Translations under genes and position numbers: made by a program
Shown here: positions 2,978 to 55,733 of the stretch, in pieces
Numbering within the stretch: position 1 is the stretch's first letter
How the letters are laid out: each line of letters begins with the position of its first letter
The notes under the pieces: generated by a model
What the model saw: only the letters and a program-made list of their open reading frames with translations
The model's database searches: none
What the model was told of the DNA's origin: nothing
From: Paludibacter sp.
GTDB taxonomy: Bacteria > Bacteroidota > Bacteroidia > Bacteroidales > Paludibacteraceae
Direction: 5' to 3'
Length of the DNA stretch: 64,000 nucleotides
Assembly (NCBI GenBank): GCA_028710895.1
Contig: JAQTTH010000007.1
Coordinates: forward strand, 62,001 to 126,000

Positions 2978-3006
2978 TTTTTTGATTGGTTAGTTTACAA
3001 TGAATA

Positions 3007-3042
3007 TTAGTTGGGGAGTTGAGCAATCAACGCCCCGACTAA
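3007..3042 (+). terminator. Stem-loop after the LamG gene
   Basis: Arms 3007-3022 and 3027-3042 pair over 16 positions, with one G-U and one mismatch, around a GCAA tetraloop. The following T-run is weak, so this is either a poor intrinsic terminator or an mRNA 3'-end stabiliser. Confidence 0.55.
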
Positions 3043-3106
3043 TTATTCAAATTCTCAGGAAAATAATAATCAAATCAGTGGAAAACAATCAAATCAATCG
3101 TTTAAG

Positions 3107-3122
3107 AAGTACCAATTTATAA
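3107..3122 (+). promoter_or_regulatory. Candidate operator upstream of lyase 1
   Basis: AAGTACCAATTTATAA here matches 13146-13161 (AAGTACCATTTTATAA) at 15 of 16 positions. Both copies lie 110-160 bp upstream of an alginate-lyase-superfamily gene in the same orientation. A shared regulator site is inferred. Confidence 0.35.
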
Positions 3123-3230
3123 GATGGTGCCTAAATGACCAAATAATCTCCTGTTGATAAAATAATTTCAGTTTAATTTGCAACAGATTAAAATCAGGAT
3201 AAATATCTTATTTCAAGAAAAATATCACCC

Positions 3231-6224: not shown

Positions 6225-6328
6225 TGATCACGCAGGATAAACATTACCCACAGCAGTTTCAGCACTCTGTTGAACTGTTGCGGTTAATATTCAACACCCT
6301 TTTTTGAAAGAAAAACAATTATTCAGGT

Positions 6329-7807: not shown

Positions 7808-8627
7808 TATATATAACCTTTCTGAGTTACTTATTTCAATTGGAGAGATTGATTCCCGACTTATAAGAGAAAATTCAGGAAGAAGAAAGATTACTACTTC
7901 TGAGTTGTTTGCTCAAAGAAATAGTGAATCTAAAGTTGTGAATTACCGAAACGATGAAAGAATATTTCTGGACAATGTGATTAATTCAGTTCAACAGAGA
8001 ATAACAGATAGCTCTTTTAATCTCAATCAGTTTGCTACAGACATGAAAATCTCAAGATCTACCTTACATAGGAAGATTAATTTATTGACAGGTTTGACTC
8101 TAGGTAAATTTGTGCATTCTTATAGAATTCAAATTGCTCAACAGCTGCTATTAAATAAATCACTCAATATATCGGAAGTTGCCTATCAGATTGGCTTTAA
8201 TGACCCTCGTTATTTTAGTCGTTGTTTTCGCAATGAAGTAGGTATATCTCCAAAGGAATATCGGGGATTTCTGAAACAAAAGTCAATAAACACTCAAAGT
8301 ACTGATCAACAATTTCTCGAAAAAGCACTAATAAAACTGGAAATGAATATATCGGATGCAAATTTATCTTTTGATCAGTTTGCAAACGAAATGAACGTGT
8401 CCAAAGCATCGTTATATCGCAAACTAAAATCAGTTGCAGGTTTGTCTCCTTGCCAATTTATTCGCTCGGTACGTATAAAGCACTCAGCACAATTGCTAGC
8501 TAAAAACAACAATATCTCTGAAGTCGCATTTGCAGTTGGATTTAATGATTCGAAGTACTTTAGTAGATGTTTTAAACGAGAATTTGGGGTTGCTCCAAAG
8601 AAATATCAAGAGTTGTTTGATTCTTGA
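7794..8627 (+). CDS. Sensor-less transcription regulator with two tandem AraC DNA-binding domains
   Basis: The protein has 277 residues. After a non-conserved 1-55 stretch come two complete AraC-type domains in series, about 60-162 and 170-275. Each has two helix-turn-helix units and the family signature: [21 protein letters not shown] in the first, [21 protein letters not shown] in the second. No ligand-binding cupin, receiver or membrane segment is present. The C-terminal domain closely resembles the output domain of the hybrid regulator at 49.4 kb, so it may derive from duplication of such a domain. The start is supported by similarity of its first residues (MxxxNxYNxxE) to the paralogue at 46.0 kb. 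It overlaps the upstream hydrolase gene by 14 bp. It probably controls the surrounding secreted-enzyme genes; the target is not shown. Confidence 0.85.
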   Translation: MIPNNIYNLSELLISIGEIDSRLIRENSGRRKITTSELFAQRNSESKVVNYRNDERIFLDNVINSVQQRITDSSFNLNQFATDMKISRSTLHRKINLLTGLTLGKFVHSYRIQIAQQLLLNKSLNISEVAYQIGFNDPRYFSRCFRNEVGISPKEYRGFLKQKSINTQSTDQQFLEKALIKLEMNISDANLSFDQFANEMNVSKASLYRKLKSVAGLSPCQFIRSVRIKHSAQLLAKNNNISEVAFAVGFNDSKYFSRCFKREFGVAPKKYQELFDS

Positions 8628-10271: not shown

Positions 10272-13046
10272 TCACTCCACTTTCATTCCTTTAAAATACT
10301 CCGATGGAGTCATATTAGTGGCTTTTTTGAAAGCACGTAGGAACGACGATTTTGCACTGAACCCGCACTGCATGGCAATAGCGGTCAGGGTGTATTTCTT
10401 TGCATCTTCAGTTTGCATACGGAGTTTTACTTCTTCGACCCTGTATGAATTGACAAAATCGGAGAAATTCTGATTGAGTTGTACATTCAGCACTTGCGAA
10501 AGTTCATGAACAGAGTATCCAATGGCTGTTGCTACATCTGCTTGCCTTAATTCAGCATTGAGGAACGGTTTTTCGTCACTCATATAAGCCAGTAGATTCT
10601 TTTTTATTTCGTTTCCTTTTTGTTCAGTGATTTTGAGTGTAGCAGTGCTGATAGTCTGTTTCTTTTTTAGTTCATCCAATTGAGCCATAATTCCTGCTTT
10701 CATACGGGCTATGTAAGAACGAGTGAAATAAAGCACAACAGAACCTATAATTATCCAGATAAGTATTGTAAACCATACTGTTTCATAAAAATAGGGTTTG
10801 ATGCTGAACTGTATCTCCGTGGGTGTGGGTGTCCAAATATCGTCATTGTTAGATGCTTTTATCTTCAATTTGTAAGCTCCGGGTGCTAGCTGGCTATAAG
10901 CTGCAATTGGGTTGGTACTTGCTTTAGTCCAGTCTTTATCCACTCCTTCCAAAAAGAAGGAGTATTGATTTCGTCGGGCATTTTTATAGTTTAAAGCAGC
11001 CACCCTGAATTCCAGGTTGTTGTTGGATTTACCCTTAATGATAACTGAATAGGACGATTGACTGACTTTGGTTACAAAGGTCAATGTATCTGCATCGTAT
11101 CGTTGTCCATTGATAAATAAATCGGTAAATTTGAGGGGTGGTGGTTGATTGTTTATTCCGCTTTTATCATTGATAAATGTCACCAGACCTTTGTCATTAC
11201 TCCACCATAAGTTTCCGGATGCATCTAAAGTTGCTGATTCGGGACAAAAACCAATACCGGTCAAACCATCTTCAAATCCGTAAGCATGTACGCTATTATT
11301 TTTGTTTACTTTGTAAAGGCCTTTGGATGTACCAATCCAGATATCTCCTTGTTTATCTTGTAATAAAGATGAAGGGGCATTCTCAGGTAATCCGATTTCT
11401 TTTGTAATCCAGCGTTTTTCCTTTTGATTTTGATCCAGTTCCAACACTCCACCTTTGTTGAAGCAAAACCAAACATTGCCTTTTGAGTCGACAAATGTAG
11501 ATGAACACTGAAACTGATAAGATTTACAGGACTCGGGTTGAACAAAATGTTTTTTAGAAAGGGAATAGTAGCAAGCTCCGGTTTTTGTACCCACCCATAT
11601 TTTGTCTTTGTTATCGGAATAAATCGTGAAAATCTCATTACTTCCAGTTGTTGCTGCTACATTGAATTTTTGTAGGGATTTAGTCGTGGGATTGTAATTG
11701 TACAATCCATCCAGTGTGGCTATCCAAAGCTGATTATATTTGTCGGTGCAGAATTTGTATACTGACCCGTTTTGGAATATTTTTTCAGATGTAAAATCAC
11801 TGCAAGCCAATGTCTTTTTATTAAGCAGGGTTATCCCTCCACCAAATGTTCCAATCAATAAAATGTTTGGCTGTCCCGGGAACGGGAAAATTGTAGTAAG
11901 TATGTTCGATCGGAAGTTTTTGCCTTGAAGGGCTCCAATTCTTTTTTTGATTTTATTTGCTGCATCCAGACATAATAAGGATCCATCCCTTGTTCCAACA
12001 TATTTTTGACCTTGATTGTCGATGTAAATAGATCTTATATTTGCATTTGTGCTTCCATCAAAGTTAATAGTATTAAACCGCTTGGATGTTTGTAAGTTGC
12101 TGAAATCAACTCCTCCGTCGAAAGTTCCGGCCCAAAGCGTTTTGGAATTATCGTGGTAGAGCGCACAGATAGTGTTTGTTGAAATCCTTTCCCGATTGAA
12201 TATGTTATTAGCCGAAATTGCCTGAAGTGAGTTGCGTGTGTTCAGATACAATAACCCTGCGTTGTCGGTTCCGATATACAAATTTCCAGTATTATCACTA
12301 CTCAAAGACAGGATTGAAATATCTTCAGTTCCCTTAACGGGTGTTATGCTCCCGCTTCCTGTATCATAAGCATATAAACCTCGTATCGTACCTAAGTATA
12401 TAACTTTCCCGATTTGTTTCATCGAATGGATATTTTGTCCCAGCGGATAGATCGTCGCATGTACAATCACTTTGTTGTCGGGTAAAATCTCGAACAAACC
12501 TTCATTACCGCAAACCCAAAGGTGCTTGCTGTTGTCTTCAATAATTCCGGCAAGTGAAACTATGGATTTTCCGTTCAGAGGAAATGGTTTTGTTTTGAGA
12601 ATAGTTGAATTGAGTGTGAACAAGCCACGTTCTGTGGCTAAAAAGATAAGCTTTTTCGATGAAATAAATACTGAGCGCACATCAATAGATGGAATGCCAA
12701 AGTCAATGGGAGTAATGTGATTTTTATGAATATTATATAAGAAAGCTCCCCATGATGTTCCCACAATCAGATTGCTCTCAGTAAGTTCGGATATGGTCTG
12801 AACGGCTCCTTTCAGCGGTATTTTGAATCTTTTAGCATAGGTGGTTATTTGTAGACCATCGTAGCTATCCAGCCCGGCATCAGTTCCAAACCACATTAAT
12901 CCATGCGAATCTTTGAAGATCGTTCGGATATAATTATTACTCAGCCCCGATTCGATATTCAAATTGTGCGAATAGGATGTTTGAGCTACGGAAAATAATG
13001 ATCCGGAGAGTAATAGAATAGCTATAAATCTGGCTCTGAAATTCAT
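10272..13046 (-). CDS. Membrane-spanning one-component regulator: Reg_prop propeller, Y_Y_Y domain and AraC output, no kinase
   Basis: The protein has 924 residues. Signal peptide 1-22. Repeated two-component propeller blades (W(V/I)GT..GL..Y type) fill about 25-650. A Y_Y_Y sandwich follows (about 690-750, FFLEGVDKDW), then a transmembrane helix at 758-776, a short coiled region, and an AraC domain at about 825-920 (QCGFSAKSSFLRAFKK). The periplasmic sensor is that of hybrid two-component glycan regulators. Histidine kinase, ATPase and receiver domains are all missing, and only about 50 residues separate the membrane helix from the DNA-binding domain. It would act as a membrane-tethered sensor that binds DNA directly. 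It lies between the GH30 and lyase genes, so it probably controls this locus. A -7 element lies at 13076-13083. Confidence 0.87.
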   Translation of the reverse strand: MNFRARFIAILLLSGSLFSVAQTSYSHNLNIESGLSNNYIRTIFKDSHGLMWFGTDAGLDSYDGLQITTYAKRFKIPLKGAVQTISELTESNLIVGTSWGAFLYNIHKNHITPIDFGIPSIDVRSVFISSKKLIFLATERGLFTLNSTILKTKPFPLNGKSIVSLAGIIEDNSKHLWVCGNEGLFEILPDNKVIVHATIYPLGQNIHSMKQIGKVIYLGTIRGLYAYDTGSGSITPVKGTEDISILSLSSDNTGNLYIGTDNAGLLYLNTRNSLQAISANNIFNRERISTNTICALYHDNSKTLWAGTFDGGVDFSNLQTSKRFNTINFDGSTNANIRSIYIDNQGQKYVGTRDGSLLCLDAANKIKKRIGALQGKNFRSNILTTIFPFPGQPNILLIGTFGGGITLLNKKTLACSDFTSEKIFQNGSVYKFCTDKYNQLWIATLDGLYNYNPTTKSLQKFNVAATTGSNEIFTIYSDNKDKIWVGTKTGACYYSLSKKHFVQPESCKSYQFQCSSTFVDSKGNVWFCFNKGGVLELDQNQKEKRWITKEIGLPENAPSSLLQDKQGDIWIGTSKGLYKVNKNNSVHAYGFEDGLTGIGFCPESATLDASGNLWWSNDKGLVTFINDKSGINNQPPPLKFTDLFINGQRYDADTLTFVTKVSQSSYSVIIKGKSNNNLEFRVAALNYKNARRNQYSFFLEGVDKDWTKASTNPIAAYSQLAPGAYKLKIKASNNDDIWTPTPTEIQFSIKPYFYETVWFTILIWIIIGSVVLYFTRSYIARMKAGIMAQLDELKKKQTISTATLKITEQKGNEIKKNLLAYMSDEKPFLNAELRQADVATAIGYSVHELSQVLNVQLNQNFSDFVNSYRVEEVKLRMQTEDAKKYTLTAIAMQCGFSAKSSFLRAFKKATNMTPSEYFKGMKVE

Positions 13047-42375: not shown

Positions 42376-42763
42376 GGTTGTTCCGGGTTTCGGCTACAAA
42401 AATACAAAGATTAATCGGAATGTAGACAGTGGATGAGATTGTCATAAGCTCCATGTATGAAAGCTCAATTTTACAGTCTGATTTTGTCCACTTACTATAG
42501 CGAATTGTCCACTACTTTGAGTTGGTATTTTTATCGCAGAAAAACAATATGCTATATCTTTGCCGTAATCAATTTAGTCACTTTTTTGTTTTAGAATAAG
42601 CAATGCGTAATTTGAATGTATTTTAATATATAAATATAGTGTTGCTTGATTTGTAACTCCTTTTTGACTGATTTAACATGCTGTGTTGGAATTTGATTGA
42701 CTAATTTTGTAATATGAAATTTGTAAGTGCGTTAAAATTAAATTAATAACAAAATCACGTATC
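42376..42763. promoter_or_regulatory. 388-bp divergent intergenic region before the LamG gene
   Basis: It contains the BASS -7 element (42397-42404), the paired GTCCACT boxes with -7 TATCTTTG (listed separately) and a second -7-like TAATTTTG at 42702-42709, nearer the LamG start codon. If transcription begins at the first -7 element, the mRNA leader is about 195 bases. I see no coding frame in it. Confidence 0.6.
42486..42562 (+). promoter_or_regulatory. Paired TCCACY-box operator and promoter, LamG gene
   Basis: GTCCACT at 42486-42492 and again at 42507-42513, 21 bp apart. A -7 TATCTTTG lies at 42555-42562, 41 bp after the proximal box. This is one 21-bp period more than at the three related promoters. 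Confidence 0.6.
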
Positions 42764-45700
42764 ATGAAAAAAAATTCTATTTTCTTTAAAATGAGGAAGC
42801 TATGTGGATTTAGCTTTCTATCGTTAGCCTTGTTGGCTTCAACATCAGCTGTAGCACAGGATGTGACAACAGGTTTGCAGGTGTATTACACATTTAATGA
42901 TGTTTCAGGAACCTCAGTGCCTGATCATTCTTCAACAACAAGTAATACAGGGACTATTATGGGGGCACCACAAACTGTTGTAGGCAATGAAGGCAGCGCA
43001 TTGCAATTTCCACTTCAGGCCGATTATTTGCAACTGCCAAATGGTCTTATGAGTTCTGTGACTGATTTTACGGTTGCTGCCTGGATAAAAATGGATAAGG
43101 AACAATGGTGGCCACGTATTTTTGACTTTGGTACAGGAACTGATAATTATATGTTTCTTGCTGAAGTAAACACATCTGCAGGATTTTATCAGCTTCGCTT
43201 TGCAATAAGAACAGCAGCAATAAATGAACAACAAATCAATTGCACCAGTAACATTGCTGTAGGCTCTTGGGTGCATGTTGCAGTAACTTTAAATGGAAAT
43301 GTTGGTACAATGTATGTAAACGGAGTTGCTGTTGCCACTAATACCATTATGACTCTTAATCCATCTTCATTAGGGTCAACTAACTTAAACTACATTGCTA
43401 AATCTCAGTTTAACGACCCTGGATTAGCTGGTAGCGTGGATGAATTTCGCGTTTATAACCGAGCGTTGACTGCTAATGATGTTTTGTCACTTACCGGTTT
43501 AAATGAATTGAAAAACCAACAAACGGCTTTGACTTTGACAAATATTGACCCTGTGACTACAAGTAAAATTAATTTGCCGTTAACCGCAGGAACTCAAGGT
43601 GTAACTATTACCTGGGCATCATCTAATAAATCAATGATTGATACTTTAGGTAATGTTTTATCTCGTCCAAGTAAATACAATACTCCGGTAATGCTTACTG
43701 CTACTTTATCACAAGCAATAGGCGATAAAACCTATAAGCTGTCTAAACAATTTGTTGCTACAGTAGTTGCTTTAAATCCAGTAGAAGCTGATCAGATTGC
43801 TTACTGGAACTTTGCGTCATCTAACCTTTCGCTTGATGGTGATACTATAAAAGTAAAAGATGCTTCAGAAAGTGGTTTTGTTGGAAAAATTATGGATGCA
43901 GCCCGCATTAGAACTATTGGTAATACAACAAAGTACAATGTACTTGATCTAGGAAATAGTACAGGTTATTTTGATATGGGAACCGGAATTGGTGAAGCTG
44001 TATATTCACTAAGTGACAAATTTACTATTGGTGGATATTTCCGAATGGATTCAACCTATACAGGTGCAGGTGACTGGGGAAATAACTTATTTAGCTTTTC
44101 CAATACAGTGAATGACTTGGCTGATCCTAAAGGAACAATGTATGCTTGTTTGGGTAAAACCAACTATGCTATTACTTCAGGAGCATGGAATTATGGAGGT
44201 GAAACAGGTATTAATCCATCTAAAACTCCTTCAACAGGCACTTGGCATCATTATGCTTACGTTCAGGATGGAAATATTGGTTCAATTTATTTTGATACTA
44301 CGTTAGTCTCAACTGGAACTATTGGTGCTTTCCCATTTAATACTTTACGTAGAGATGGTGTAACCGGTACGCTCTTTAACTGGATTGGTCGTCCTCCATA
44401 TGGTTCACCCGATTCTTATTTGCGTAAAACATTAGTTTACGGTGTAGATATGTATAAAATTGCTTTAACTAAGACTGATATGACTACTCTTTTAGGAGTT
44501 CCAGATACGCTTGCGGCATTGAATAAAGCATATAAAGAAAATTCAGATAATATCTCAACAGCTTTGTCAACTGAAATGACTCATTTGACTACTGCACTTG
44601 GTAATTTGAGCTCAGTTACATCAAATCTTTCATTACCAGCTGTTGGAGTTTTAGACAATTCTATTACAATTAAGTGGACATCAACTCACGAAGAGATTAT
44701 TAGTTTGGCTGGTGTTGTTACTCAACCTAATTACCATGCTTACAATGTTGCATTAACAGCAACAATGAAGACAAATACCGGTCAGAGTTTGGTGAAAACA
44801 TTTAATGCAACTGTACCTGCAAAAGCCGGAACAGCATATAATAATGATCTATTAGTGAAATATGATTTTGCTTCAGTAACTAATGATACAATTGTAACTG
44901 ATGCAGCAGAAAAACATTTGACAGGTATTGTCAAGAATGGTGCAAAAATTCGTACAATCGGTACAACAGACACTGGTAAATTCAATGTATTAGCTTTAGG
45001 CGATAGTATTGGATATTTCGATATGGGCGCTGAAGTTGGAAAACTTGTTTATGACTTAAAGGATTATACAGTATGTGCTTACTTCCGTATCGATCCTAAT
45101 TATCTCGATACAGAATTGGCTAAGAACGGTAACTTCCTTTGGAGTTTCTCAAATGCATTAGATATCCTGAAACCTGATTACTCAGGGTACCTTATCGGTA
45201 GTTTGAAAAATCAGGCAGTGACTATTACACCTTCAAACTGGTCGGGTGAGCAAACTGTGAAAATTGGTTCAACAGCTATGAAAGGTAACTGGCATCACTT
45301 TGCATATACACAAAAAGACAGTATTGGAACAGTCTATATAGATGGTTCGGCGCAAAGCTCGGGTACAGTAAAACAACTACCTTCAAATACTTTGATAAAA
45401 GATCAACGATTGGGTACCTTGTATAACTGGATTGGACGTTCTTGCTACAGTGGAGATGTTTATTTACGCAAAACACTGGTTACCGACTTAAGACTTTATA
45501 AGACAGTTTTGACAGACTTGTTAACAGAACTAGATATTACTAATAAGACGTTTGCATTGGAAGCTGCGCTTTCTATAAACGATGGAACAGCTGTTAAAGC
45601 AATTGACCAGAACAAATACAAAGTGATAGCTAATAATGGCCAGTTGAGTATTCGTGGCCTGGTTGGTGGTGAAAATGTTAGCATTTACGATGTTACCGGT

Positions 45701-45811
45701 CACCAACTTAATGTGAAAGCAACAAATATGGGTACTTCAACAATATCAGTTAAATCAGGAGTTTATATCGTGAGAATAAATGATTCAGCTGTGAAAGTGG
45801 TTGTTTTGTAA
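42764..45811 (+). CDS. Secreted triple-LamG protein with T9SS sorting domain
   Basis: The protein has 1015 residues. Signal peptide about 1-32 (STSAVAQD). It has three LamG/concanavalin sandwiches (about 40-240, 350-600, 715-945) separated by atrophied bacterial Ig-like domains (about 250-340 and 605-705). The IGRPPYGSPDSYLRKTLV and IGRSCYSGDVYLRKTLV segments show that LamG 2 and 3 are duplicates. A type A T9SS domain ends the protein (about 965-1015, YDVTGHQL to VKVVVL). There is no catalytic domain, so it is probably a surface glycan-binding protein. Its promoter shares operator boxes with the GH43, GH51 and hybrid regulator genes, pointing to arabinan binding. A terminator follows. Confidence 0.85.
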   Translation: MKKNSIFFKMRKLCGFSFLSLALLASTSAVAQDVTTGLQVYYTFNDVSGTSVPDHSSTTSNTGTIMGAPQTVVGNEGSALQFPLQADYLQLPNGLMSSVTDFTVAAWIKMDKEQWWPRIFDFGTGTDNYMFLAEVNTSAGFYQLRFAIRTAAINEQQINCTSNIAVGSWVHVAVTLNGNVGTMYVNGVAVATNTIMTLNPSSLGSTNLNYIAKSQFNDPGLAGSVDEFRVYNRALTANDVLSLTGLNELKNQQTALTLTNIDPVTTSKINLPLTAGTQGVTITWASSNKSMIDTLGNVLSRPSKYNTPVMLTATLSQAIGDKTYKLSKQFVATVVALNPVEADQIAYWNFASSNLSLDGDTIKVKDASESGFVGKIMDAARIRTIGNTTKYNVLDLGNSTGYFDMGTGIGEAVYSLSDKFTIGGYFRMDSTYTGAGDWGNNLFSFSNTVNDLADPKGTMYACLGKTNYAITSGAWNYGGETGINPSKTPSTGTWHHYAYVQDGNIGSIYFDTTLVSTGTIGAFPFNTLRRDGVTGTLFNWIGRPPYGSPDSYLRKTLVYGVDMYKIALTKTDMTTLLGVPDTLAALNKAYKENSDNISTALSTEMTHLTTALGNLSSVTSNLSLPAVGVLDNSITIKWTSTHEEIISLAGVVTQPNYHAYNVALTATMKTNTGQSLVKTFNATVPAKAGTAYNNDLLVKYDFASVTNDTIVTDAAEKHLTGIVKNGAKIRTIGTTDTGKFNVLALGDSIGYFDMGAEVGKLVYDLKDYTVCAYFRIDPNYLDTELAKNGNFLWSFSNALDILKPDYSGYLIGSLKNQAVTITPSNWSGEQTVKIGSTAMKGNWHHFAYTQKDSIGTVYIDGSAQSSGTVKQLPSNTLIKDQRLGTLYNWIGRSCYSGDVYLRKTLVTDLRLYKTVLTDLLTELDITNKTFALEAALSINDGTAVKAIDQNKYKVIANNGQLSIRGLVGGENVSIYDVTGHQLNVKATNMGTSTISVKSGVYIVRINDSAVKVVVL

Positions 45812-45844
45812 ATAATTCATATTGATTTGTATAATTAAATATTG

Positions 45845-45894
45845 GCAGCGGTAATCATATAGTTTGAAGCTTTTGTTTACCGCTGCTGTTATTT
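45845..45894 (+). terminator. Terminator of the triple-LamG gene
   Basis: GCAGCGGTAA (45845-45854) pairs perfectly with TTACCGCTGC (45877-45886) across a 22-nt loop, followed by a short T-rich stretch. Confidence 0.7.
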
Positions 45895-46024
45895 GAAACC
45901 TAAGAAATATTTTCTTGGTATTCACTTAAAATGACAAATAATTTGCATACGTGAATTCTGAAATTTATGGGAATAAATGAAGAATGTCCTTTTATCTAAT
46001 TAATCATTTTACAACATTAATCAC

Positions 46025-46699
46025 ATGTTATTGAGCAATACATATAATTTTACTGAGATTGCTAGAGCAGAAATCTTGGACTCTAAGTTTGTTAGAAGAG
46101 AAGTTCGAAACGACAGGACGATTTATTCTAAACAAAATGAGATGACCGATTTGACTAATTTGTCAAGAATTGAGATTGCACAAGAGCTACTATTAAACAA
46201 TAACCTGAATATTTCTGAAATTGCATATAGAATAGGTTTCAATGATCCCAGATATTTCAGCAGATGTTTTAAAAAGGTAGTTGGAGTTTCTCCTAAAGAA
46301 TATCGGATTTCAAGTTGTGAGAAGTCTGTAGATATAGACAGCCAGAGTATGGATAAGTTGTTTCTTGAGAAAGCACTACTTAAATTGGAAACCAAAATAG
46401 CTGATGCAGATTTGTCATTCGAGCAATTTGCAATTGAAATGAATGTATCCAAAGCCTCATTATACCGCAAAATTAAATCAGTTGTAGGTTTATCACCTTG
46501 TGAGTTTATTCGGACTTTTCGGATTAAACGTTCTGCTCAGTTGTTGACTAAACATAGTAATATCTCTGACGTTGCATTTGCTGTTGGTTTTAATGATTCG
46601 AAATACTTTAGAAGGTGTTTTAAGAGTGAATTTGGAATCACTCCATCGCAATATCAAGAGTTGCTAACGGCCGAAGAATATGTATCTATGGTTTCATAA
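46025..46699 (+). CDS. Sensor-less AraC-type regulator, paralogue with truncated first domain
   Basis: The protein has 224 residues. It is clearly related over its whole length to the double-AraC protein at 7.8 kb. The N-terminal residues match, but about 53 residues of the first AraC domain are absent in frame. These contained its first helix-turn-helix and the linker. Only the second HTH remains ([21 protein letters not shown], about 67-87). The second AraC domain (about 115-215, [21 protein letters not shown]) is complete. No sensor, receiver or membrane segment is present. It probably regulates the arabinan genes around it. Alternatively it may be a degenerating copy, but the frame is fully open. 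It lies 213 bp after the LamG gene behind a terminator. Confidence 0.82.
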
Positions 46700-46720
46700 A
46701 AGAAATTCATATATAAAAAA

Positions 46721-46762
46721 ATAAAACCATTCATCTTTTTATAGATGAATGGTTTTATTTTT
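46721..46762. terminator. Bidirectional terminator between AraC-like and GH43 genes
   Basis: A perfect 16-bp stem (46721-46736 with 46743-46758) with a 6-nt loop and A/T runs on both sides serves the two convergent genes. Confidence 0.93.
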
Positions 46763-46826
46763 TTATATGGAACGGGTAACCGAAGTAGATCTTTGTTTTG
46801 AGAAATAAAATCAATGAGATTGTAAT

Positions 46827-48554
46827 TTAATTAACCTTCTTTCCCCAAAGCGATCTTCCCAGAATGTTTAATCCCGAATATACAATGGTTGGTACCCTGG
46901 GCGAGGATTCCCAGTTTAGTTCCCGTTGTAGTTTTAGTTTCTGAGTACCAATTGTCAGTGTTTTAGTGTTGGCATTATAAGTCCAGGTTCCAGCTATCGC
47001 TCCTGTCGCTACATAATTTGCTTGCAGGGTGAGTGTTGTTGAAGTTTGCTGAACGCCGGCAACGTAGTTCAATGTAATGTTTTCCCAGTTGCCAACCAAA
47101 TCGGCATCGGTAATTGGCGTTTGTGGAACATTAGCATAACGTTCGGGTAGAACTACAGGCCATCCATCATCTGTCCACATAATTTTGCGAACGTGACCCA
47201 TCATTATGGCATTGCTATAAGCATTCCCATTTGTATTGGCAGGCAAACGTGCCTGTGAGCAATAAAACCAATCGCCGGTGTCAGGATTCTGGAAAACACA
47301 GCAGTGCGAAAATCCGACCCAACCAGAGTGATTATTGAATTTATAGGGATGTGTAATTATTGGATAACAATCAGCCCCCGTTGTGATATTTGCTCCGTTA
47401 TAGCCCAGAAATGGTCCGGTAATAGTTTTTGAGCGACATACACGCGTATTATAATTCACTGACAATTCATCGTAGGCTAAGAACAAGTAATAATATCCAG
47501 TTTTAGGATTATACATTATTTCCGGGCCTTCTTGTCCTTGCCAGCGATTAGCATCATTAGCTACTCTACGGGCAATGCGCGTTCCATAATCTGCAAGAAC
47601 ATTTAGCTTTAGTGGTTTTCCTGTAGTTGAATCTAGTTGTACTTCGGGAATACCACTATGCCATGAACCATAAATAAGCCAGTGATTTCCTTCAGGAGTA
47701 ACAATATAGGTTGGGTCAATAGCATTCCATTTAAAATAAGCACTCCAGTCGGAAGTACTTGTCCGCGCCCAACTTGTTTTATCCGAGACCGAACTAATGA
47801 CGTATCCTTTATCCACCCAAACATTTGTTGCTAAATCAGTAGACTCCATCATGCCAATAAATGCACGTTCTGTCCATGTATTGTCGAAGTTTGCAGTTGT
47901 ATTTTGTAATCCATTGCCAATATAATTATCGACAATTATGCTATAATACATCCTATATTTATTTCCTACTTTCCGAATGCAAGGTGCCCAGTATCCATAA
48001 CTGGGATTCGTAATTGCAGCTAAACCGAGGCGTGCTCGCATAGCATTCAATGAGTCCCTTACCCAGGTTGGTGGAGTCTGACTCATAGCACATCCCCTGT
48101 AATACCAGTTTACTAAATCTCTGGAATATTTATATGGGAAATGACCATACCCATTCAGCACATTGCCATAAGAAGCATCAGTGCCATACATGTACCAATA
48201 ACTGCCACATTTCACAACGCTCGGGTCGTGTACATTTCCCAGATTCCAGCTCGCGCGATTGTCGTAACTCGAAATGGCTGAATAATCGTCGGCATACGTT
48301 GGAGCGGTATAGGCAAGCGTCTGCTCGTCGACAATATTGAGGCTGTCAACAGCAGAAACAAGCATATTTGTGACAGTTGTGTCTGTCTTATAAATGTTCA
48401 TTTCTGTGTTGTTGTTACCAAAAGTAATGCTGTCAATCTTTGATACCAATATGCTGATAAGCGATCCGCTTGTTTTATGAATATATAATTTGTTTTCGGC
48501 AAATAAAGCAACGATAACAACAATTCCGACAACAAATAATACGGTTTTTTTCAT
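46827..48554 (-). CDS. Secreted GH43 endo-arabinanase-like enzyme
   Basis: The protein has 575 residues. The N-terminal hydrophobic segment (1-19) acts as signal peptide or anchor. Residues 22-75 hold two copies of a short beta motif (LVSKIDSITFG, LVSAVDSLNIV), also found in the upstream partner gene. The five-bladed GH43 propeller (about 95-470) carries Asp110 in HDPSVV, Asp280 in AIDPTYI and Glu345 in EGPEIM. These are the base, pKa modulator and acid. A C-terminal sandwich (about 480-575) matches the GH43 C-domain of arabinanases. It cleaves alpha-1,5-arabinan. No T9SS tail is present, so it is periplasmic or membrane-associated. Its ATG overlaps the stop of the preceding T9SS protein gene by 4 bp, so the two are coupled in one operon. 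Confidence 0.9.
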   Translation of the reverse strand: MKKTVLFVVGIVVIVALFAENKLYIHKTSGSLISILVSKIDSITFGNNNTEMNIYKTDTTVTNMLVSAVDSLNIVDEQTLAYTAPTYADDYSAISSYDNRASWNLGNVHDPSVVKCGSYWYMYGTDASYGNVLNGYGHFPYKYSRDLVNWYYRGCAMSQTPPTWVRDSLNAMRARLGLAAITNPSYGYWAPCIRKVGNKYRMYYSIIVDNYIGNGLQNTTANFDNTWTERAFIGMMESTDLATNVWVDKGYVISSVSDKTSWARTSTSDWSAYFKWNAIDPTYIVTPEGNHWLIYGSWHSGIPEVQLDSTTGKPLKLNVLADYGTRIARRVANDANRWQGQEGPEIMYNPKTGYYYLFLAYDELSVNYNTRVCRSKTITGPFLGYNGANITTGADCYPIITHPYKFNNHSGWVGFSHCCVFQNPDTGDWFYCSQARLPANTNGNAYSNAIMMGHVRKIMWTDDGWPVVLPERYANVPQTPITDADLVGNWENITLNYVAGVQQTSTTLTLQANYVATGAIAGTWTYNANTKTLTIGTQKLKLQRELNWESSPRVPTIVYSGLNILGRSLWGKKVN

Positions 48555-49036
48555 AGTTTGGTAAATTTCAATGTTTTGTTGTTGGTTTTGAGTAAATACA
48601 TTCCTTTGGGCAATCTGCTGATATCTATTTGTTGCGACGCTGAAGCCAGGTTGTAGTTCATCATTTCTACTCCGTTCATGCTGTAAATCCGAATACTGGT
48701 TTTTCCTTCAGGAGCATTTTGCAGACGAAGATAGTTGCTGGCAGGGCATGGGTAAAGGCTGATTGAAGTTTGATCGGATGTAATTTCATTAATGCCTGAA
48801 TATATTCCAAAAATCAATTTTCGGATACCGGAAATGGCATATGAATTTGATGAGGCATCTGTTTTGTTTAAAAGAAGATTGCCTCCGGAGAAAGTGATTT
48901 TTCTGACAGAACTAATGAGTGTGGCATTTTCAGTACCATCAGTAAATTTCATTGACAGGCTGTTTTGAGCCGTCAGACAAGTTGAGCAGACTGCTGAAAA
49001 AATCAGGAATCCGGTGAAAAGTTGTTTTAGTTTCAT
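48551..49036 (-). CDS. Small T9SS-exported protein coupled to GH43
   Basis: The protein has 161 residues. Signal peptide 1-23 (CLTAQ). Residues 25-75 contain two copies of a short motif (ISSVRKITFSG, ISGIRKLIFG), like those at the N-terminus of the GH43. The rest (about 85-161, LYPCPASNYLRL to LKFTKL) is a type A T9SS sorting domain. No enzymatic domain exists. It could be a surface partner or an anchor presenting the same motif as the arabinanase; the function is unknown. It is first in the operon, with a -7 element and paired operator boxes upstream. Confidence 0.78.
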   Translation of the reverse strand: MKLKQLFTGFLIFSAVCSTCLTAQNSLSMKFTDGTENATLISSVRKITFSGGNLLLNKTDASSNSYAISGIRKLIFGIYSGINEITSDQTSISLYPCPASNYLRLQNAPEGKTSIRIYSMNGVEMMNYNLASASQQIDISRLPKGMYLLKTNNKTLKFTKL

Positions 49037-49066
49037 AGTGTAGTGATTCTATAAGGAATAACGACA

Positions 49067-49122
49067 CAAAGATAATATAATTACAACTTCCATTAGTGGA
49101 CAAAAGTTTTTTGAAGGTGGAT
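49067..49122 (-). promoter_or_regulatory. Paired TCCACY-box operator and promoter, T9SS/GH43 operon
   Basis: On the minus strand, ATCCACC (complement of 49116-49122) and GTCCACT (complement of 49095-49101) lie 21 bp apart. The second is 20 bp upstream of -7 TATCTTTG (complement of 49067-49074). Confidence 0.65.
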
Positions 49123-49279
49123 AATTGAAGAATGCTGTTAATCCTCTAATTTTACTAATTTTGTTGGGTAATTTTAAATCTATATTTGTTTGATAAAATA
49201 AACAATAGGCCTGTTGTTTTATAAGTAATATTTTGTTTGTTAGATGTTTATGTGTGTTTTGTTCTTTAGACATGAAATT

Positions 49280-49336
49280 ATCCTCAACTAATAAACATAT
49301 ATCCACTTTATATAAGCTATATTTTGTCTATTTTCG
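49280..49336 (+). promoter_or_regulatory. Paired TCC-box operator and promoter, hybrid regulator gene
   Basis: ATCCTCA at 49280-49286 and ATCCACT at 49301-49307 lie 21 bp apart. The second is 21 bp upstream of the -7-like TATTTTCG at 49329-49336. Suggests autoregulation. Confidence 0.6.
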
Positions 49337-49358
49337 TAGCTGACAATAATCTATTTCA

Positions 49359-52300
49359 ATGAAAAAATGTATCCTTCTCACTCTTGCCATTCTTTTTAGC
49401 TTGGTTTCTGTGAGGCCGTTGCCCTATAAAATTTCCTACCTCACTGCCGATAACGGGTTGTCCCGAAATCTGGTAGATTATATTTTTCGTGACTCCAGAG
49501 GATTTATGTGGTTTTGTACCACCAAAGGCCTCGACCGCTACGATGGGTACGAGTATGTACATTTCGATAGTCGAAGTATGGTAAATCCATTGGTAAGTGA
49601 TAATGTACATTGTGTAGAGGAGGATGCCAATGGAGATCTTTGGATTGGAACTGAAAACGGACTTTACTTTTTGGACTATAAAACAGGAGAAATACAAAGT
49701 TCAGCTAAAAAACTAACCACAAAAGCAAATTTTAATACCCAGCAAATTGTATTTATAAATAAAGACGACCAGGGGAATCTTTGGGTGGGATACAATGGAG
49801 GTTTGGCTAAAATTCATGTTGAAAAAGATGAAATTTCAGGCGAAGAAGTTTACCATACTACAACGAGCATCAGCTCAATTCTTTTTTATAACGGGAATAT
49901 TCTGGTAAGTCACGATAATGAAATATTTCGTTTGATTAAAGGCAACGATGGAAAATATAAACGCGTAAATGCCGATAATAAATTACGTTCGTTTTCGGGG
50001 AGTGTAAATGCCATGATTTACGATAATGGTCTGATTTGGATTGGAACCGGAACCGGTCTTTATAAATATGAGCCAGCAAGTGAAAATCTTACCCGCTATA
50101 TGGCAGCACCTTCCGTTCCAAATCAACTTACTTCCAGTTATGTGTCGGATGTTAAGAAATACAAAGAGGGTCAGCTGGTGATTGGTACCCTGATGGGATT
50201 GAATATCTATGATTATCAAACAGACTCATTTTCGGGTGTTACATCCGAGTCGGTTGGCGAGAGTGGTGCTCTGAATAATAACTTTATCAATTGTTTGCTG
50301 GTTGACGATAACACAATTTGGATTGGAACAGATAAAGGGGGTGTCAATCTCTTGTGTCCCGATCAAAGTCCGTTTGGATTTATCGGACATAGTTTCGATA
50401 ATCCCTATAGCTTGTCGAAAAATCCTGTCAATGCCATTTACGAAGATAAGGATGGTGACCTTTTTGCAGGAACTGTTGAAGGTGGATTAAATATTCGAAA
50501 AAAAGGTAGTGCAGGCTTTATGCATTCATTCAGCCAGATGGGGAATAGCCGGTCGTTGAGTCATAATTCGGTAAGTTGTATTTGTCAGGATTATAACGGC
50601 GACTACTGGATTGGCACCTGGGGCCTCGGAATTAACCGACTTAGGTATAAAGATAAATATAAACCTGTTTTCGAGCAGTTTCAAGTCGTGAATTCAAACA
50701 ATAATAGTATCCAGAGTAATTTTGTGGCCTCTTTAGTCCCGGATAATGTCAATAAAGGCCTGTGGATTGGCGCACGTGAAGGAATAGATTTTTTAGATAT
50801 AACTACCGGGAAATTCAGACATGTGCTGAACTATTTGCCTCAGGATTTGCGGATTCGTTTTGTTACAGGCATGTTTATCGATTCAAAAAGGAGGTTATGG
50901 ATTGGTACAAATTACGGACTTATTTGTATTTATCTCAATGAAACCAATTTGGTTAAGAATAAGATAAAATATAAATACTACCGCTATTTACTAACAAATC
51001 CGTCATCACTGATTTATGAAAAGATAAACTGTATCCTTGAAACGAAGGATAAGCGGCTTTGGTTTGGGAGTAACGGAAATGGTATTTATTCGTTAGACGA
51101 AAAATCAGATAATCTCAAATTTATCAACTTCGATGAGCGTAGTGGTTTGCTGGATAACGTGGTGTATGGTATGCTCGAAGATGAAACAGGAACACTCTGG
51201 ATAAGTACCGATAAAGGATTGTGTGCCTATAACTCCAATCGTAACAGCATCCGGAGTTATACCAAAAGTGACGGACTAAAATCAAATCAGTTCTATTGGG
51301 ATGCTTATTTCAAAGGGCACGATGGCAAAATGTATTTCGGAAGTGTTGCGGGAATTACAGTATTTGATCCACTGAAAACTACGCCCGTAAATGTGAAGAA
51401 TACAGCTACAATAACCCGTATAAGAATATTGAATGATGATGTTTATCCTGCAAAAGTGAAGATCCCGGATGGATTTCTGCAATTTGAAGGTTCAAAACTC
51501 AGTGGTATAAAGTTGCATGAATCCGACAAAGCTTTTAGCATTGAATTCTCGGCTTTGAGTTATTTTCAGGGTGATAAAATTAAATATGCCTATCGTCTGA
51601 AAGGCTTTGATAATAACTGGACTGAAGTAAGTTCAGACCGTCGGTTTGCCAGTTTTACAAACATAAACAATGGCAATTACGAACTGGAAGTAAAATGTAC
51701 AAACCCTGATGGATCCTGGTCGGATCAGATTACGACACTCGATATTCGGGTTATTCCTCCAATATATAAAACATGGTGGTTTCTGTTGCTTTTCGTTGGC
51801 TTGACTGCCTATGGAGTTTATCGGTATTCAATTTATCGCATTGACCAGTTTAGGAAACAAAAGATTCAACTGAAACAAATGGTTGATGAACGAACTTATG
51901 AAATTGAGCAACAAAAGGAATTGCTGGAAGAACAAGCTCTGCAACTTCAGACAAATATGAAGGAGCTAATGGAGCATCAGGAAGAAGTGTCACGCCAAAA
52001 TGAGATACTCGTACAACAGAATCAGAAAATTACACATCAAAAAGAACAGATGGTTGCACTATCGAAAAAGGTGCAGGATGCTAATTTCGACAAAATATCT
52101 TTCTTTACTAATATCACGCATGAATTCCGAACACCGATTACATTGATTCTTGGCCCGGTTGAGCGTTCGTTGAAACTGAGTACTAATCCTAAAGTGCTTG
52201 AACAACTGCATATTGTGAAACGAAACTCACGCTTGCTGCTATCGCTGATAAATCAGTTGATGGACTTCCGCAAAGTGGATTCAGGAAAGATGGAAATTAC

Positions 52301-53666
52301 CAAAACGCACCAGAATTTTGTGGAGTTTTTGGATGATATTATTCTTCCGTTCGAAGATTTGGTGAAAGATCGTGGAATTATATTTCATAAACAATACCGG
52401 ATTAATCCGCCCGAATTTCTTTTCGATCGCGAAAATATGCAGAAAGTACTTGGAAATCTGCTTTCGAATGCCATCAAGTTTACGCCTGATTACGGAACTA
52501 TAACGGTTATTGCAAGTACATATACCGACCGGTCGGATCAGAAAGAGCGACTCTATGTGGCTGTGAAGGACACAGGCAAGGGTATTCCGGAAGAAGATTT
52601 GGAAAAGATTTTCGAACGGTTCTATCAATCCAAGCTAAATCAACCTTATTCAGGTTCCGGACAAAGTGGCACCGGTATCGGATTGTATTTGTGCAAGCGA
52701 ATTATTCAATTGCACAACGGGAAAATAGAAGCCCGAAATCAAAATTCGGGTGGCATGAGCTTCCGATTTATTATTCCAATTGAACGGAGGTTGTCAACAG
52801 TGGTTTCATTGGATGGTAAACCCATGGAGATGATTGTTGCCAATGCGTCAGTTGAACCAGAAGACGATTCAATTAAACATGAAATTACAAAAGGTAAACC
52901 TGTTTTACTCATTGTGGAGGATAACAGCGATATGCGTCAATATATTCGGTCCATTTTAAGTCAGGAATACAATGTGCTGGAAGCTCCAAACGGTGTTGTT
53001 GGATTGGAAATTACCAACCGGTATCAGCCCGATTTGATTGTAAGCGATATTATGATGCCCGAAATGGATGGGCTGGAATTTTGTAAACGCGTGAAGACCA
53101 ACTTTACAACTTCGCATATTCCGCTGATATTGTTGACTGCAAAATCCTCGACCGACACACAAATTGAGAGTTTCCATGTGGGGGCAGATGCATTCCTTGT
53201 GAAGCCTTTCGACGAAGAATTGTTGAAAGCACTTATCCGAAATCTGAATGATAAACGGAAGCGAGTTCAACTGAGTTTTGCTGAAAACATGGATACCGAA
53301 GCATTGAACTTTGACGATGAATCGTTGGATAAGAAGTTTCTGGAGAAAGCATTGAAAGTGATTAAAGAAAACTACACAAATCCCGAATTTGATGTGGCAG
53401 AGTTTATCGATGCCATGGGAATCAGTCGAAGCTTGTTGCACAAAAAGTTGACAAACCTGGCGGGACAATCGGCAAGTAGATTTATTCGAAATTACCGACT
53501 GAATATGGGGCGCGAATTGATTATCAAAAACAGGGTAACGCATTCGCTCAACATATCCGAAATTGCTTACGAGGTAGGTTTTAATGATCCGAAGTATTTT
53601 ACACGTTGTTTTACAAAGCATTTTGGAACGCAGCCGAGTGCATTTTTGGAGGAGCAAGCTGATTAA
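49359..53666 (+). CDS. Hybrid two-component system regulator (HTCS) for arabinan use
   Basis: The protein has 1435 residues. Signal peptide 1-22. The periplasmic two-component propeller repeats (about 30-690) and Y_Y_Y domain (about 715-800) are the glycan sensor. TM helix about 806-824. Coiled coil about 830-910. The histidine kinase has its phospho-acceptor His921 in THEFRTP, an N-box in NLLSNAIKFTP and G-boxes in DTGKGIPEE and GTGIGLYL. The receiver domain has Asp1230 in IVSDIMMPEMDG, and the C-terminal AraC domain covers about 1325-1430. All modules look intact. It should sense an arabino-oligosaccharide and activate the neighbouring LamG, GH43 and GH51 genes, whose promoters share boxes with its own. 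It stands between the two arabinan operons. Confidence 0.95.
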   Translation: MKKCILLTLAILFSLVSVRPLPYKISYLTADNGLSRNLVDYIFRDSRGFMWFCTTKGLDRYDGYEYVHFDSRSMVNPLVSDNVHCVEEDANGDLWIGTENGLYFLDYKTGEIQSSAKKLTTKANFNTQQIVFINKDDQGNLWVGYNGGLAKIHVEKDEISGEEVYHTTTSISSILFYNGNILVSHDNEIFRLIKGNDGKYKRVNADNKLRSFSGSVNAMIYDNGLIWIGTGTGLYKYEPASENLTRYMAAPSVPNQLTSSYVSDVKKYKEGQLVIGTLMGLNIYDYQTDSFSGVTSESVGESGALNNNFINCLLVDDNTIWIGTDKGGVNLLCPDQSPFGFIGHSFDNPYSLSKNPVNAIYEDKDGDLFAGTVEGGLNIRKKGSAGFMHSFSQMGNSRSLSHNSVSCICQDYNGDYWIGTWGLGINRLRYKDKYKPVFEQFQVVNSNNNSIQSNFVASLVPDNVNKGLWIGAREGIDFLDITTGKFRHVLNYLPQDLRIRFVTGMFIDSKRRLWIGTNYGLICIYLNETNLVKNKIKYKYYRYLLTNPSSLIYEKINCILETKDKRLWFGSNGNGIYSLDEKSDNLKFINFDERSGLLDNVVYGMLEDETGTLWISTDKGLCAYNSNRNSIRSYTKSDGLKSNQFYWDAYFKGHDGKMYFGSVAGITVFDPLKTTPVNVKNTATITRIRILNDDVYPAKVKIPDGFLQFEGSKLSGIKLHESDKAFSIEFSALSYFQGDKIKYAYRLKGFDNNWTEVSSDRRFASFTNINNGNYELEVKCTNPDGSWSDQITTLDIRVIPPIYKTWWFLLLFVGLTAYGVYRYSIYRIDQFRKQKIQLKQMVDERTYEIEQQKELLEEQALQLQTNMKELMEHQEEVSRQNEILVQQNQKITHQKEQMVALSKKVQDANFDKISFFTNITHEFRTPITLILGPVERSLKLSTNPKVLEQLHIVKRNSRLLLSLINQLMDFRKVDSGKMEITKTHQNFVEFLDDIILPFEDLVKDRGIIFHKQYRINPPEFLFDRENMQKVLGNLLSNAIKFTPDYGTITVIASTYTDRSDQKERLYVAVKDTGKGIPEEDLEKIFERFYQSKLNQPYSGSGQSGTGIGLYLCKRIIQLHNGKIEARNQNSGGMSFRFIIPIERRLSTVVSLDGKPMEMIVANASVEPEDDSIKHEITKGKPVLLIVEDNSDMRQYIRSILSQEYNVLEAPNGVVGLEITNRYQPDLIVSDIMMPEMDGLEFCKRVKTNFTTSHIPLILLTAKSSTDTQIESFHVGADAFLVKPFDEELLKALIRNLNDKRKRVQLSFAENMDTEALNFDDESLDKKFLEKALKVIKENYTNPEFDVAEFIDAMGISRSLLHKKLTNLAGQSASRFIRNYRLNMGRELIIKNRVTHSLNISEIAYEVGFNDPKYFTRCFTKHFGTQPSAFLEEQAD

Positions 53667-53698
53667 TGAGCAAGTTAAGCAGGCATGCATTAGAAATT

Positions 53699-53755
53699 TT
53701 CCTCCATATAGAAATTTTAGTCCACCCGAAAAGTTATTTTAATTACGTATTTTTG
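53699..53755 (+). promoter_or_regulatory. Paired TCC-box operator and promoter, GH51 gene
   Basis: TTCCTCC (53699-53705) and GTCCACC (53720-53726) lie 21 bp apart. The second is 21 bp upstream of -7 TATTTTTG (53748-53755), which is 28 bp before the ATG. Confidence 0.6.
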
Positions 53756-53783: not shown

Positions 53784-55733
53784 ATGAAAAAAACAAAATC
53801 ACTGGCAATGTTGGCTTTTTCCATGCTATTGGGAACACAACTACTCTTTGCTCAAACTCACAACATTCAGGTTGACCTGAAGAAATTGGGTTCACCGATT
53901 CAGAAAACCATGTATGGTATTTTCTTCGAAGATATTAACTACGGTGCTGATGGTGGATTGTATGCCGAACTGATAAAAAACCGTTCGTTCGATTTTCCTC
54001 AAAATTTATTGGGTTGGACAACTTTTGGTAATGTGGAAGTGCTGAAAGATGGTCCGTTTGCCAATAACCCCAATTATGTACGTCTTTCGTATGCCGGACA
54101 CGATGAAAAACAAACCGGATTGGATAACGAAGGCTTCTTTGGAGTAGGAGTAAAGCAGGATGCCGAATACCGTTTCTCGGTTTGGGCCCGTTCTGCCGAA
54201 AGTGCAGGAAGTATCCGCATCGAACTTATTGATCCTGAAAGTAACGTTTTTACTACTCAGAAACTAACAGTAGATTCCAAGGAATGGAAAAAATACGAAG
54301 TGGTGATGAAGTCGCGCAGAACAGAAGCGAAAGCCCGTTTGCGTATTTTCCTGACTTCGAAAACTGCTGTTGACATGGATCACGTTTCGCTTTTCCCGGT
54401 TGATAGCTGGAAAGGCCGCGAAAATGGTTTGCGTAAGGACTTAGCTCAGGCATTGTACGATTTGCATCCCGGAGTTTTCCGCTTTCCAGGTGGATGTATT
54501 GTAGAAGGAACCGAAACCGGCGACCGTTACCAATGGAAAAATTCGGTAGGGCAAGTTGAAAATCGTAAATCGAATATGAATCGTTGGGAATATACTTTTC
54601 CAAACCGTTATTTCCCCGATTATCGTCAATCTTATGGCATGGGCTTTTTCGAATTGTTCCAATTATCCGAAGACATAGGTGCAGAACCACTTCCGGTAAT
54701 CAGTTGTGGATTAGTTTGTCAATTCCAAAACAAAGACCCTAAGGCTCATGTGCCTGTAAGCGAATTGCAGCCTTACATTCAGGATGCGTTGGATTTAATT
54801 GAATTTGCTAATGGCGACGTAACAACCAAATGGGGAAAACTTCGTGCCGATATGGGTCACCCGGCATCTTTCCACCTGAAAATGATGGCTGTTGGTAACG
54901 AACAATGGGGAACATTGTATCCCGAACGCGTTGAACCGTTTATCAAAGCCATTCGTGCCAAATATCCCGATTTCAAAATTGTAGGTACTGCCGGTCCTAG
55001 TCCCGATGGAAAAGATTTTGATTTTGGATGGAGCGAAATGAAACGCCTGAAAGCCGACCTCGTTGACGAACATTATTACAAAGATCCACAATGGTTCCTG
55101 GCTAATGCAGGTCGTTACGATAAATACGACCGTAAAGGTCCGAAAGTATTTGCCGGAGAATATGCTTGTCACCCAAAAAACCGCAAAAATAATTTCGAGT
55201 CGGCACTTTGCGAAGCTGCCTTTATGACCGGATTTGAGCGCAATGCCGATGTTGTTTATCAATGCACCTATGCACCGCTTTTTGCTCACGTGCAGGGCTG
55301 GCAATGGAAACCCGATTTGATTTGGTTCGATAACCTGCGCAGTGTTCGTTCGGTAAACTACTACGTGCAACAATTGTATGGCCAGAATGTGGGAACAAAC
55401 GTGCTGACAACTGTCGAAAACAAATTGCCGCTCGAAGGGCTTGATGGCATTTATGCTTCGTCGGCATTGGATAAATACAAGAACGTGATTATCCTGAAAA
55501 TTGCCAACACATCGGATGTGGCTAAGAAAGCAAGTTATACTTTCAACGGACTGAAAGCTGCTGCCCGCAAAGGAACACAAACCGTACTGAAATCGGATGT
55601 GCTCGATCAGGAAAATACACTTGACAATCCAACTGCTGTTGTTCCAACCGTAAAAGATATTACTGTTTCTGGTAATACGTTTGAAGTGGAATTGGCACCG
55701 AAATCGTTTAGTGTCTATACAATTCAGTTGTAA
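53784..55733 (+). CDS. Secreted GH51 alpha-L-arabinofuranosidase
   Basis: The protein has 649 residues. Signal peptide 1-23 (LFAQ). The N-terminal strand (IQKTMYGIFFEDINYGADGG) leads into an inserted CBM4/9-like sandwich (about 75-205). The (beta/alpha)8 barrel has acid/base Glu373 in MMAVGNEQWG and nucleophile Glu459 in VFAGEYACH, and a C-terminal sandwich (about 545-649) follows. It releases terminal alpha-L-arabinofuranose from arabinan, arabinoxylan or arabinosylated proteins. No T9SS tail is present, so it is periplasmic. It is monocistronic between a boxed promoter and a terminator. Promoter boxes tie it to the hybrid regulator just upstream. Confidence 0.94.
   Translation: MKKTKSLAMLAFSMLLGTQLLFAQTHNIQVDLKKLGSPIQKTMYGIFFEDINYGADGGLYAELIKNRSFDFPQNLLGWTTFGNVEVLKDGPFANNPNYVRLSYAGHDEKQTGLDNEGFFGVGVKQDAEYRFSVWARSAESAGSIRIELIDPESNVFTTQKLTVDSKEWKKYEVVMKSRRTEAKARLRIFLTSKTAVDMDHVSLFPVDSWKGRENGLRKDLAQALYDLHPGVFRFPGGCIVEGTETGDRYQWKNSVGQVENRKSNMNRWEYTFPNRYFPDYRQSYGMGFFELFQLSEDIGAEPLPVISCGLVCQFQNKDPKAHVPVSELQPYIQDALDLIEFANGDVTTKWGKLRADMGHPASFHLKMMAVGNEQWGTLYPERVEPFIKAIRAKYPDFKIVGTAGPSPDGKDFDFGWSEMKRLKADLVDEHYYKDPQWFLANAGRYDKYDRKGPKVFAGEYACHPKNRKNNFESALCEAAFMTGFERNADVVYQCTYAPLFAHVQGWQWKPDLIWFDNLRSVRSVNYYVQQLYGQNVGTNVLTTVENKLPLEGLDGIYASSALDKYKNVIILKIANTSDVAKKASYTFNGLKAAARKGTQTVLKSDVLDQENTLDNPTAVVPTVKDITVSGNTFEVELAPKSFSVYTIQL

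Follow-up and report, generated by a model that had tools for sequence, protein, structure and literature searches.

Around the arabinan locus of Paludibacter sp. (contig JAQTTH010000007.1, positions 62,001 to 126,000; this whole stretch of 64,000 nucleotides is called the window), the gene for a hybrid two-component system (HTCS) regulator stands among genes for a LamG protein, a protein with a type IX secretion system (T9SS) tail and glycoside hydrolases of families GH43 and GH51 (Table 1). At four promoters of this locus lie pairs of short TCC boxes, arranged as direct repeats with a period of 21 bp. We propose from their sequence and placement that these pairs of AAWTTRTCCWCY half-sites are very likely the operator of the HTCS encoded at 49359-53666, through which it would activate the arabinan genes together with its own gene.

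The four pairs had been picked out in a preliminary description of this DNA, and their sequences, coordinates and strands are all as given there; in fact, the period is exactly 21 in 4/4. The consensus TCCACY proposed at that time fits six of the eight boxes, and because the distal boxes of the HTCS (TCCTCA) and GH51 (TCCTCC) promoters depart from it, TCCWCH is a better description. When 43 sites are aligned, both copies of the half-site read AAWTTRTCCWCY, although only the flanking columns of this alignment are informative because the sites were chosen by their cores. A fifth site, which the preliminary description did not contain, lies about 8.5 kb past the end of the window and precedes a same-strand run of genes for a second GH51, a GH43, a T9SS-tailed alpha-galactosidase and a GH97.

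The consensus of sigma-ABfr promoters is given as TTTG at -33 and TAnnTTTG at -7 (PMC7366714), and it is this Bacteroidetes -7 element that follows the box pairs. Its distance from the proximal box, 20 bp (T9SS/GH43), 21 bp (HTCS and GH51) or 41 bp (LamG), is also as first described. The element varies with the gene: at 11 of the 13 HTCS promoters compared among relatives TAnnTTCG replaces TAnnTTTG, the window's own (49329-49336) among them, while some relatives' GH51 promoters carry TTNNTTTG and several have TT where TA is expected.

The spacing of the boxes is highly preferred. Within the window, TCCNCY-N15-TCCNCY occurs four times against 0.15 expected, and 0 of 100 shuffles reach four; one of these four matches (33482) is inside a coding open reading frame, and the HTCS pair falls outside this pattern. 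We then scanned 48 genomes of the genus, among them our own, for pairs of TCCWCH boxes at periods 9-39 followed at 18-23 bp by TANNTTTG, which returned 124 rows, 118 of them distinct and analysed. Period 21 accounts for 54 of the 118 matches and the next best period for 5, although counting all copies of a certain repeated element would bring period 10 to about 11. The distance to the -7 element is just as constrained, since 51 of the 54 period-21 matches have a gap of 20 (38 matches) or 21 (13), the rest having 22 (2) or 23 (1). For the remaining periods, the gap values 18-23 receive 7 to 14 matches apiece. As a control, a mismatch-tolerant scan at period 20 gave 4 matches with 2-3 mismatches and zero known sites.

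The preliminary description expected the boxes to be kept at orthologous promoters, and this is what related genomes of this group of plant-fibre degraders display. Orthologs of the HTCS occur in 15 of the 48 genomes (14 besides our own; two copies in G043), with 57-74% identity for those of full length and 75-87% in the DNA-binding domain. Upstream DNA is available for 13 HTCS genes (three more begin at contig ends), and a TCCHC pair at period 21 precedes ten of them, the sole other period being 19, found once; this fits the earlier suggestion that the HTCS gene regulates itself. Upstream of the GH51 orthologs of HTCS-carrying genomes the strict pair is present in 7/15, a number that rises to 13/15 if one change in one box is allowed. 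With HTCS and GH51 promoters taken together, a relaxed test finds 23/28 at period 21, with no other period between 15 and 30 exceeding 8/28. The layout of the T9SS/GH43 promoter is repeated in G019 (L221) and G051 (L211:12474).

Which regulator do these sites follow? We defined TCCWCY-type sites as period-21 pairs in which both boxes end in a pyrimidine, and scored HTCS presence by the DNA-binding domain alone, with all candidates scored. This domain is 75-100% identical in the 15 genomes that carry the HTCS and at most 47% among the matches listed elsewhere, except for a remnant in G001. Of 31 TCCWCY-type sites, 28 are in those 15 genomes, counted with gene context checked for part of them, and a few may be coding. 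Such a site occurs in 11/15 genomes with the HTCS vs 3/33 without it (Fisher p=1.6e-5, a value that ignores shared ancestry). G001 offers a case of loss: 54 residues of the HTCS (1381-1434; 75% identical) persist at L345:10638-10799, directly before an open GH51 frame. In a by-eye alignment the boxes of this GH51 are TACACT and TATACC, thus both TCC cores are lost. Five genomes have a GH51 (59-75% identity) and no HTCS; the pair is missing in four (G001, G003, G006, G016) and intact in G014.

The LamG promoter departs from the common gap, and its 41 bp had been read as one more 21-bp period. To look at this distance we fixed the period at 21 and let the gap vary from 15 to 45 (70 rows): 20 (38) and 21 (13) dominate, 41-42 has five, and the remaining 27 gap values share 14 rows, so that 41-42 is in excess (binomial p=0.008). 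Four of the five belong to LamG promoters, in G000 (our own genome), G005, G019 and G051, with a gap of 42 in the last three, and the fifth to a T9SS-tailed GH51 of G005. Thus, four further sites in three species bear out the extra period, which recurs at LamG promoters. It is no rule for all LamG genes: the gap is 20 at L218 (G056, LamG/carbohydrate-binding module (CBM)/T9SS), before short LamG genes of G005 (L147:2091) and G020 (L223), and before a ricin/LamG gene of G041 (L233). By eye, no third box occupies the -33 place in four promoters with a gap of 41-42 (window, L147, L211, L219).

Table 1. Candidate operator pairs and genes of the locus (window coordinates, except for the fifth site; gap, bp from proximal box to -7 octamer)
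Feature	Position	Strand	-7 octamer	Gap	Remarks
TCCACT-N15-TCCACT	42487..42513	+	TATCTTTG at 42555-42562	41	before the LamG gene
TCCACC-N15-TCCACT	49095..49121	-	TATCTTTG at 49067-49074	20	before the T9SS-tail/GH43 operon
TCCTCA-N15-TCCACT	49281..49307	+	TATTTTCG at 49329-49336	21	before the HTCS gene
TCCTCC-N15-TCCACC	53700..53726	+	TATTTTTG at 53748-53755	21	before GH51
Fifth site	G000:C4:134503-134529	-	TATTTTTG	20	past the window end
LamG/aBig lectin-like protein	42764..45811	+			proposed regulated gene
Sensorless AraC-type protein	46025..46699	+			two tandem AraC DNA-binding domains, first partial; rival binder
GH43 hydrolase	46827..48554	-			second gene of the proposed regulated operon, with the T9SS-tail protein
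T9SS sorting domain (Por_Secre_tail) protein	48551..49036	-			first gene of the proposed regulated operon
HTCS, 1435 aa	49359..53666	+			Reg_prop propeller, Y_Y_Y, HisKA, HATPase_c, Response_reg, AraC-type helix-turn-helix; proposed operator binder
GH51 alpha-L-arabinofuranosidase	53784..55733	+			proposed regulated gene

The solved chain of PDB 12aw, a hybrid two-component system protein, matches residues 1182-1432 (receiver and DNA-binding domain) of the window HTCS. Elsewhere in the window (10272-13046), a Reg_prop/Y_Y_Y/AraC regulator, in which the scan found no kinase or receiver domain, is located near GH28, GH30 and GH88 genes.

Behind the TCCWCY-type sites of relatives, the genes scanned are mostly GH51, GH43, GH127, LamG/CBM and T9SS-tailed proteins. 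A TCCWCA box is present in 23 of the 54 period-21 sites, 14 in genomes with the HTCS and 9 elsewhere. We also noticed a family of TCCACA direct repeats of 21 bp with the -7 element at gap 20-21 (L237:5079, L238:5901, L231:2955, L241:4361, L242:5257, L243:6741, L244:5886). The L243 site is just downstream of another HTCS gene (2318-6391).

Several observations weigh against assigning the operator to this HTCS. Two genomes are real exceptions, near-complete and with arabinan-type targets in the absence of the HTCS ortholog: G014 (99% complete, L346) has intact pairs before GH51 and a GH43-type gene, and in G060 (97% complete, L230) an Alpha-L-AF_C gene is preceded by a perfect pair. The third HTCS-less genome with a TCCWCY pair, G006, owes its match to a run of GGATAT-like repeats that is probably coding. 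To these exceptions must be added a co-occurrence test that ignores shared ancestry, three of the 13 HTCS promoters lacking a period-21 pair (G043 second copy, G057, G041), and the strict pair missing from 8/15 GH51 promoters. Some targets do not fit arabinan either, namely a Fasciclin-domain protein (L226) and a GH31 (L234), and the second gene at L224, behind a T9SS-tail-like gene, matches no Pfam family. The three TCCACA sites with genes scanned (L231, L237, L238) precede pectate-lyase-like or GH28 genes, therefore the core alone names no regulator. A separate matter is the genome-wide count of TCCWCH-N15-TCCWCH, the bare pair, which hardly exceeds background, with 41 matches vs 28 for a reversed-pattern control, and 7 of the 41 sit in two 21-bp-step runs that resemble tandem repeats. 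These runs, with TCCACT-like boxes every 21 bp (G000:C4:178638-179000 and C35:11066-11260), inflate bare-pair counts. As a genome-wide search pattern the bare pair was dropped as unspecific.

That last count is what would support the reading that the boxes arise by chance or from the base composition of AT-rich promoters, an idea to which we give practically no credence. Specificity appears once the -7 element is added to the pair, and only then: period 21 then stands far above all other periods, and the relaxed ortholog test peaks there as well. The preliminary description had asked how the pair compares with random frequency, and the outcome is divided, the bare pair being near background and the pair with its -7 element far from random. 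Nor do other loci produce the combination. In L035-L071, 37 of the 80 loci of distant HTCSs (25-39% identity; L072-L114 lay outside the scan), there are zero pairs with the -7 element and no excess of period 21, and L120-L144 likewise give zero pairs with the element. A more serious competitor is another HTCS of the same genome, in which the DNA-binding domain has 37 matches, window HTCS and tandem AraC proteins counted in. One of these might be the true binder and the adjacent HTCS a bystander; the TCCACA family before pectinase genes suggests that several HTCSs may share a core, making other HTCSs possible co-users of it, and TCCWCY pairs persist in G014 and G060 without the window-type HTCS. 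We nevertheless consider this unlikely, given that the sites track the window HTCS ortholog across the genus, that the pair precedes the HTCS's own gene in 10/13, and that the GH51 operator decayed in the sole genome with an HTCS remnant.

Within the locus itself there is another candidate, the sensorless tandem AraC-type protein (46025-46699, or its paralog 7794-8627), which with its two AraC-type domains could straddle the 21-bp repeat as one chain. G045 has a relative immediately upstream of a GH31 gene that carries a TCCTCC/TCCACC pair. The first domain of the 46025 protein, however, is without the first helix-turn-helix. Searched in nine genomes, the 46025 protein has no close relative in the eight other than its own: in G005, G013, G019, G020 and G043 it matches best to domains within frames of HTCS size, the best non-HTCS match in G051 reaches only 45%, and all six of these genomes carry pairs. 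For the paralog, a search of the 48 genomes finds relatives with 55% identity or more across most of the length in G000 and G045 only. Because close relatives are confined to G000 (paralog) and G045, this protein probably does not account for the retention of the boxes in other species, and we regard it as a very improbable binder in place of the HTCS. Co-occurrence, the decay in G001 and the rarity of the AraC protein in relatives thus favour the HTCS as the probable binder, in agreement with the assignment made in the preliminary description. The open frames at 46004-46696 (231 aa) and 7788-8624 (279 aa) hold tandem AraC-type DNA-binding domains and no sensor domain, and similar proteins are found at L234:744-1616 (G045), L249:8962-9612 (G000:C22) and L250:10466-11080 (G051), the last arranged head-to-head with an HTCS. 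These proteins resemble output domains of HTCSs fused in one chain. The one encoded in this locus could conceivably act as a pre-formed dimer on the same 21-bp repeats, competing with or replacing the phosphorylated HTCS, which we hold to be quite unlikely.

The pairs had been likened to the araBAD promoter of E. coli, where two direct half-sites 21 bp apart, which we take to be araI1 and araI2, lie upstream. This much of the comparison stands, but TCCA is in register in the first half-site only. AraC senses arabinose as a one-component regulator and has a different partner domain; it binds both half-sites, the downstream one meeting the -35 region, and the araBAD promoter is of the -35 type, in contrast to -33/-7 here. 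The araI half-site is of the type TAGC-N7-TCCATA; none of the 43 aligned sites has a TAGC-like block 11 bp before the TCC, their half-site being AAWTTRTCCWCY and not of the araI type.

Closer parallels come from Bacteroides, and these had escaped the preliminary description. Direct-repeat operators averaging 21 bp were predicted in 2013 for 16 of the 36 B. thetaiotaomicron HTCSs, in a set that includes the regulon HTCS_Ara-1 (BT0366) (Ravcheev et al. 2013, PMC3878776). The present sites share with those described there the direct repeat of about 21 bp, the position before genes of a neighbouring polysaccharide locus, kept across species, and an HTCS with an AraC-type DNA-binding domain; they differ in genus and in serving T9SS-secreted enzymes, and the likeness is one of layout. 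Loci with susC/susD-like genes were a selection criterion of that study (PMC3878776), and no susC/susD domain was found among 27 window proteins scanned, a part of the window's open reading frames. In electrophoretic mobility shift assays the arabinan HTCS BT0366 retards promoter fragments from its own locus; it is needed for induction of the locus, and the authors of that work suggested positive autoregulation (PMC5061871). The window HTCS resembles BT0366 in its link to arabinan, and is tied to its own operator by co-occurrence and one loss case. Among the open-licence papers that searches on HTCS motifs listed, most of them unopened, we recognised none with a description of this regulon or of a fixed distance from box to -7 element; PMC12125979 and PMC4666351 contributed nothing on the motif. 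Thus, the 21-bp HTCS repeat design was already known, and it is worked out here for a further regulator, together with the box-to-(-7) geometry.

To explain these results we propose that the periplasmic propeller senses a fragment of arabinan, as the example of BT0366 suggests. HTCS DNA-binding domains are described as inactive until phosphorylation (PMC11253607), and phosphorylation would here free the AraC-type domains, allowing a dimer to bind one face of the DNA, its half-sites separated by two turns. In the majority of promoters, where 20-21 bp separate the proximal box from the -7 element downstream, this box would occupy the place of the -33 element, and because it lies there we propose that the dimer contacts RNA polymerase at this position. 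At LamG promoters with a gap of 41-42 the whole operator would be moved one 21-bp period further upstream, keeping its helical phase. In each case the downstream operon would be activated, and the HTCS gene likewise.

HTCSs are major glycan sensors of Bacteroidetes, and the published operators that we found are predictions, with few binding tests. The sites described here would provide a precise operator, made of two half-sites with a period of 21 at 20-21 or 41-42 bp from the -7 element, and, within a single genome, a proposed regulon comprising five operons. They also offer a sensor proposed to regulate itself, together with a relative (G001) in which regulator and operator decayed together. 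Finally, given that two HTCS-like motif classes are apparent, TCCWCY mostly before arabinan genes and TCCACA, where checked, before pectinase genes, we envision that they may serve as a basis for an HTCS recognition code.

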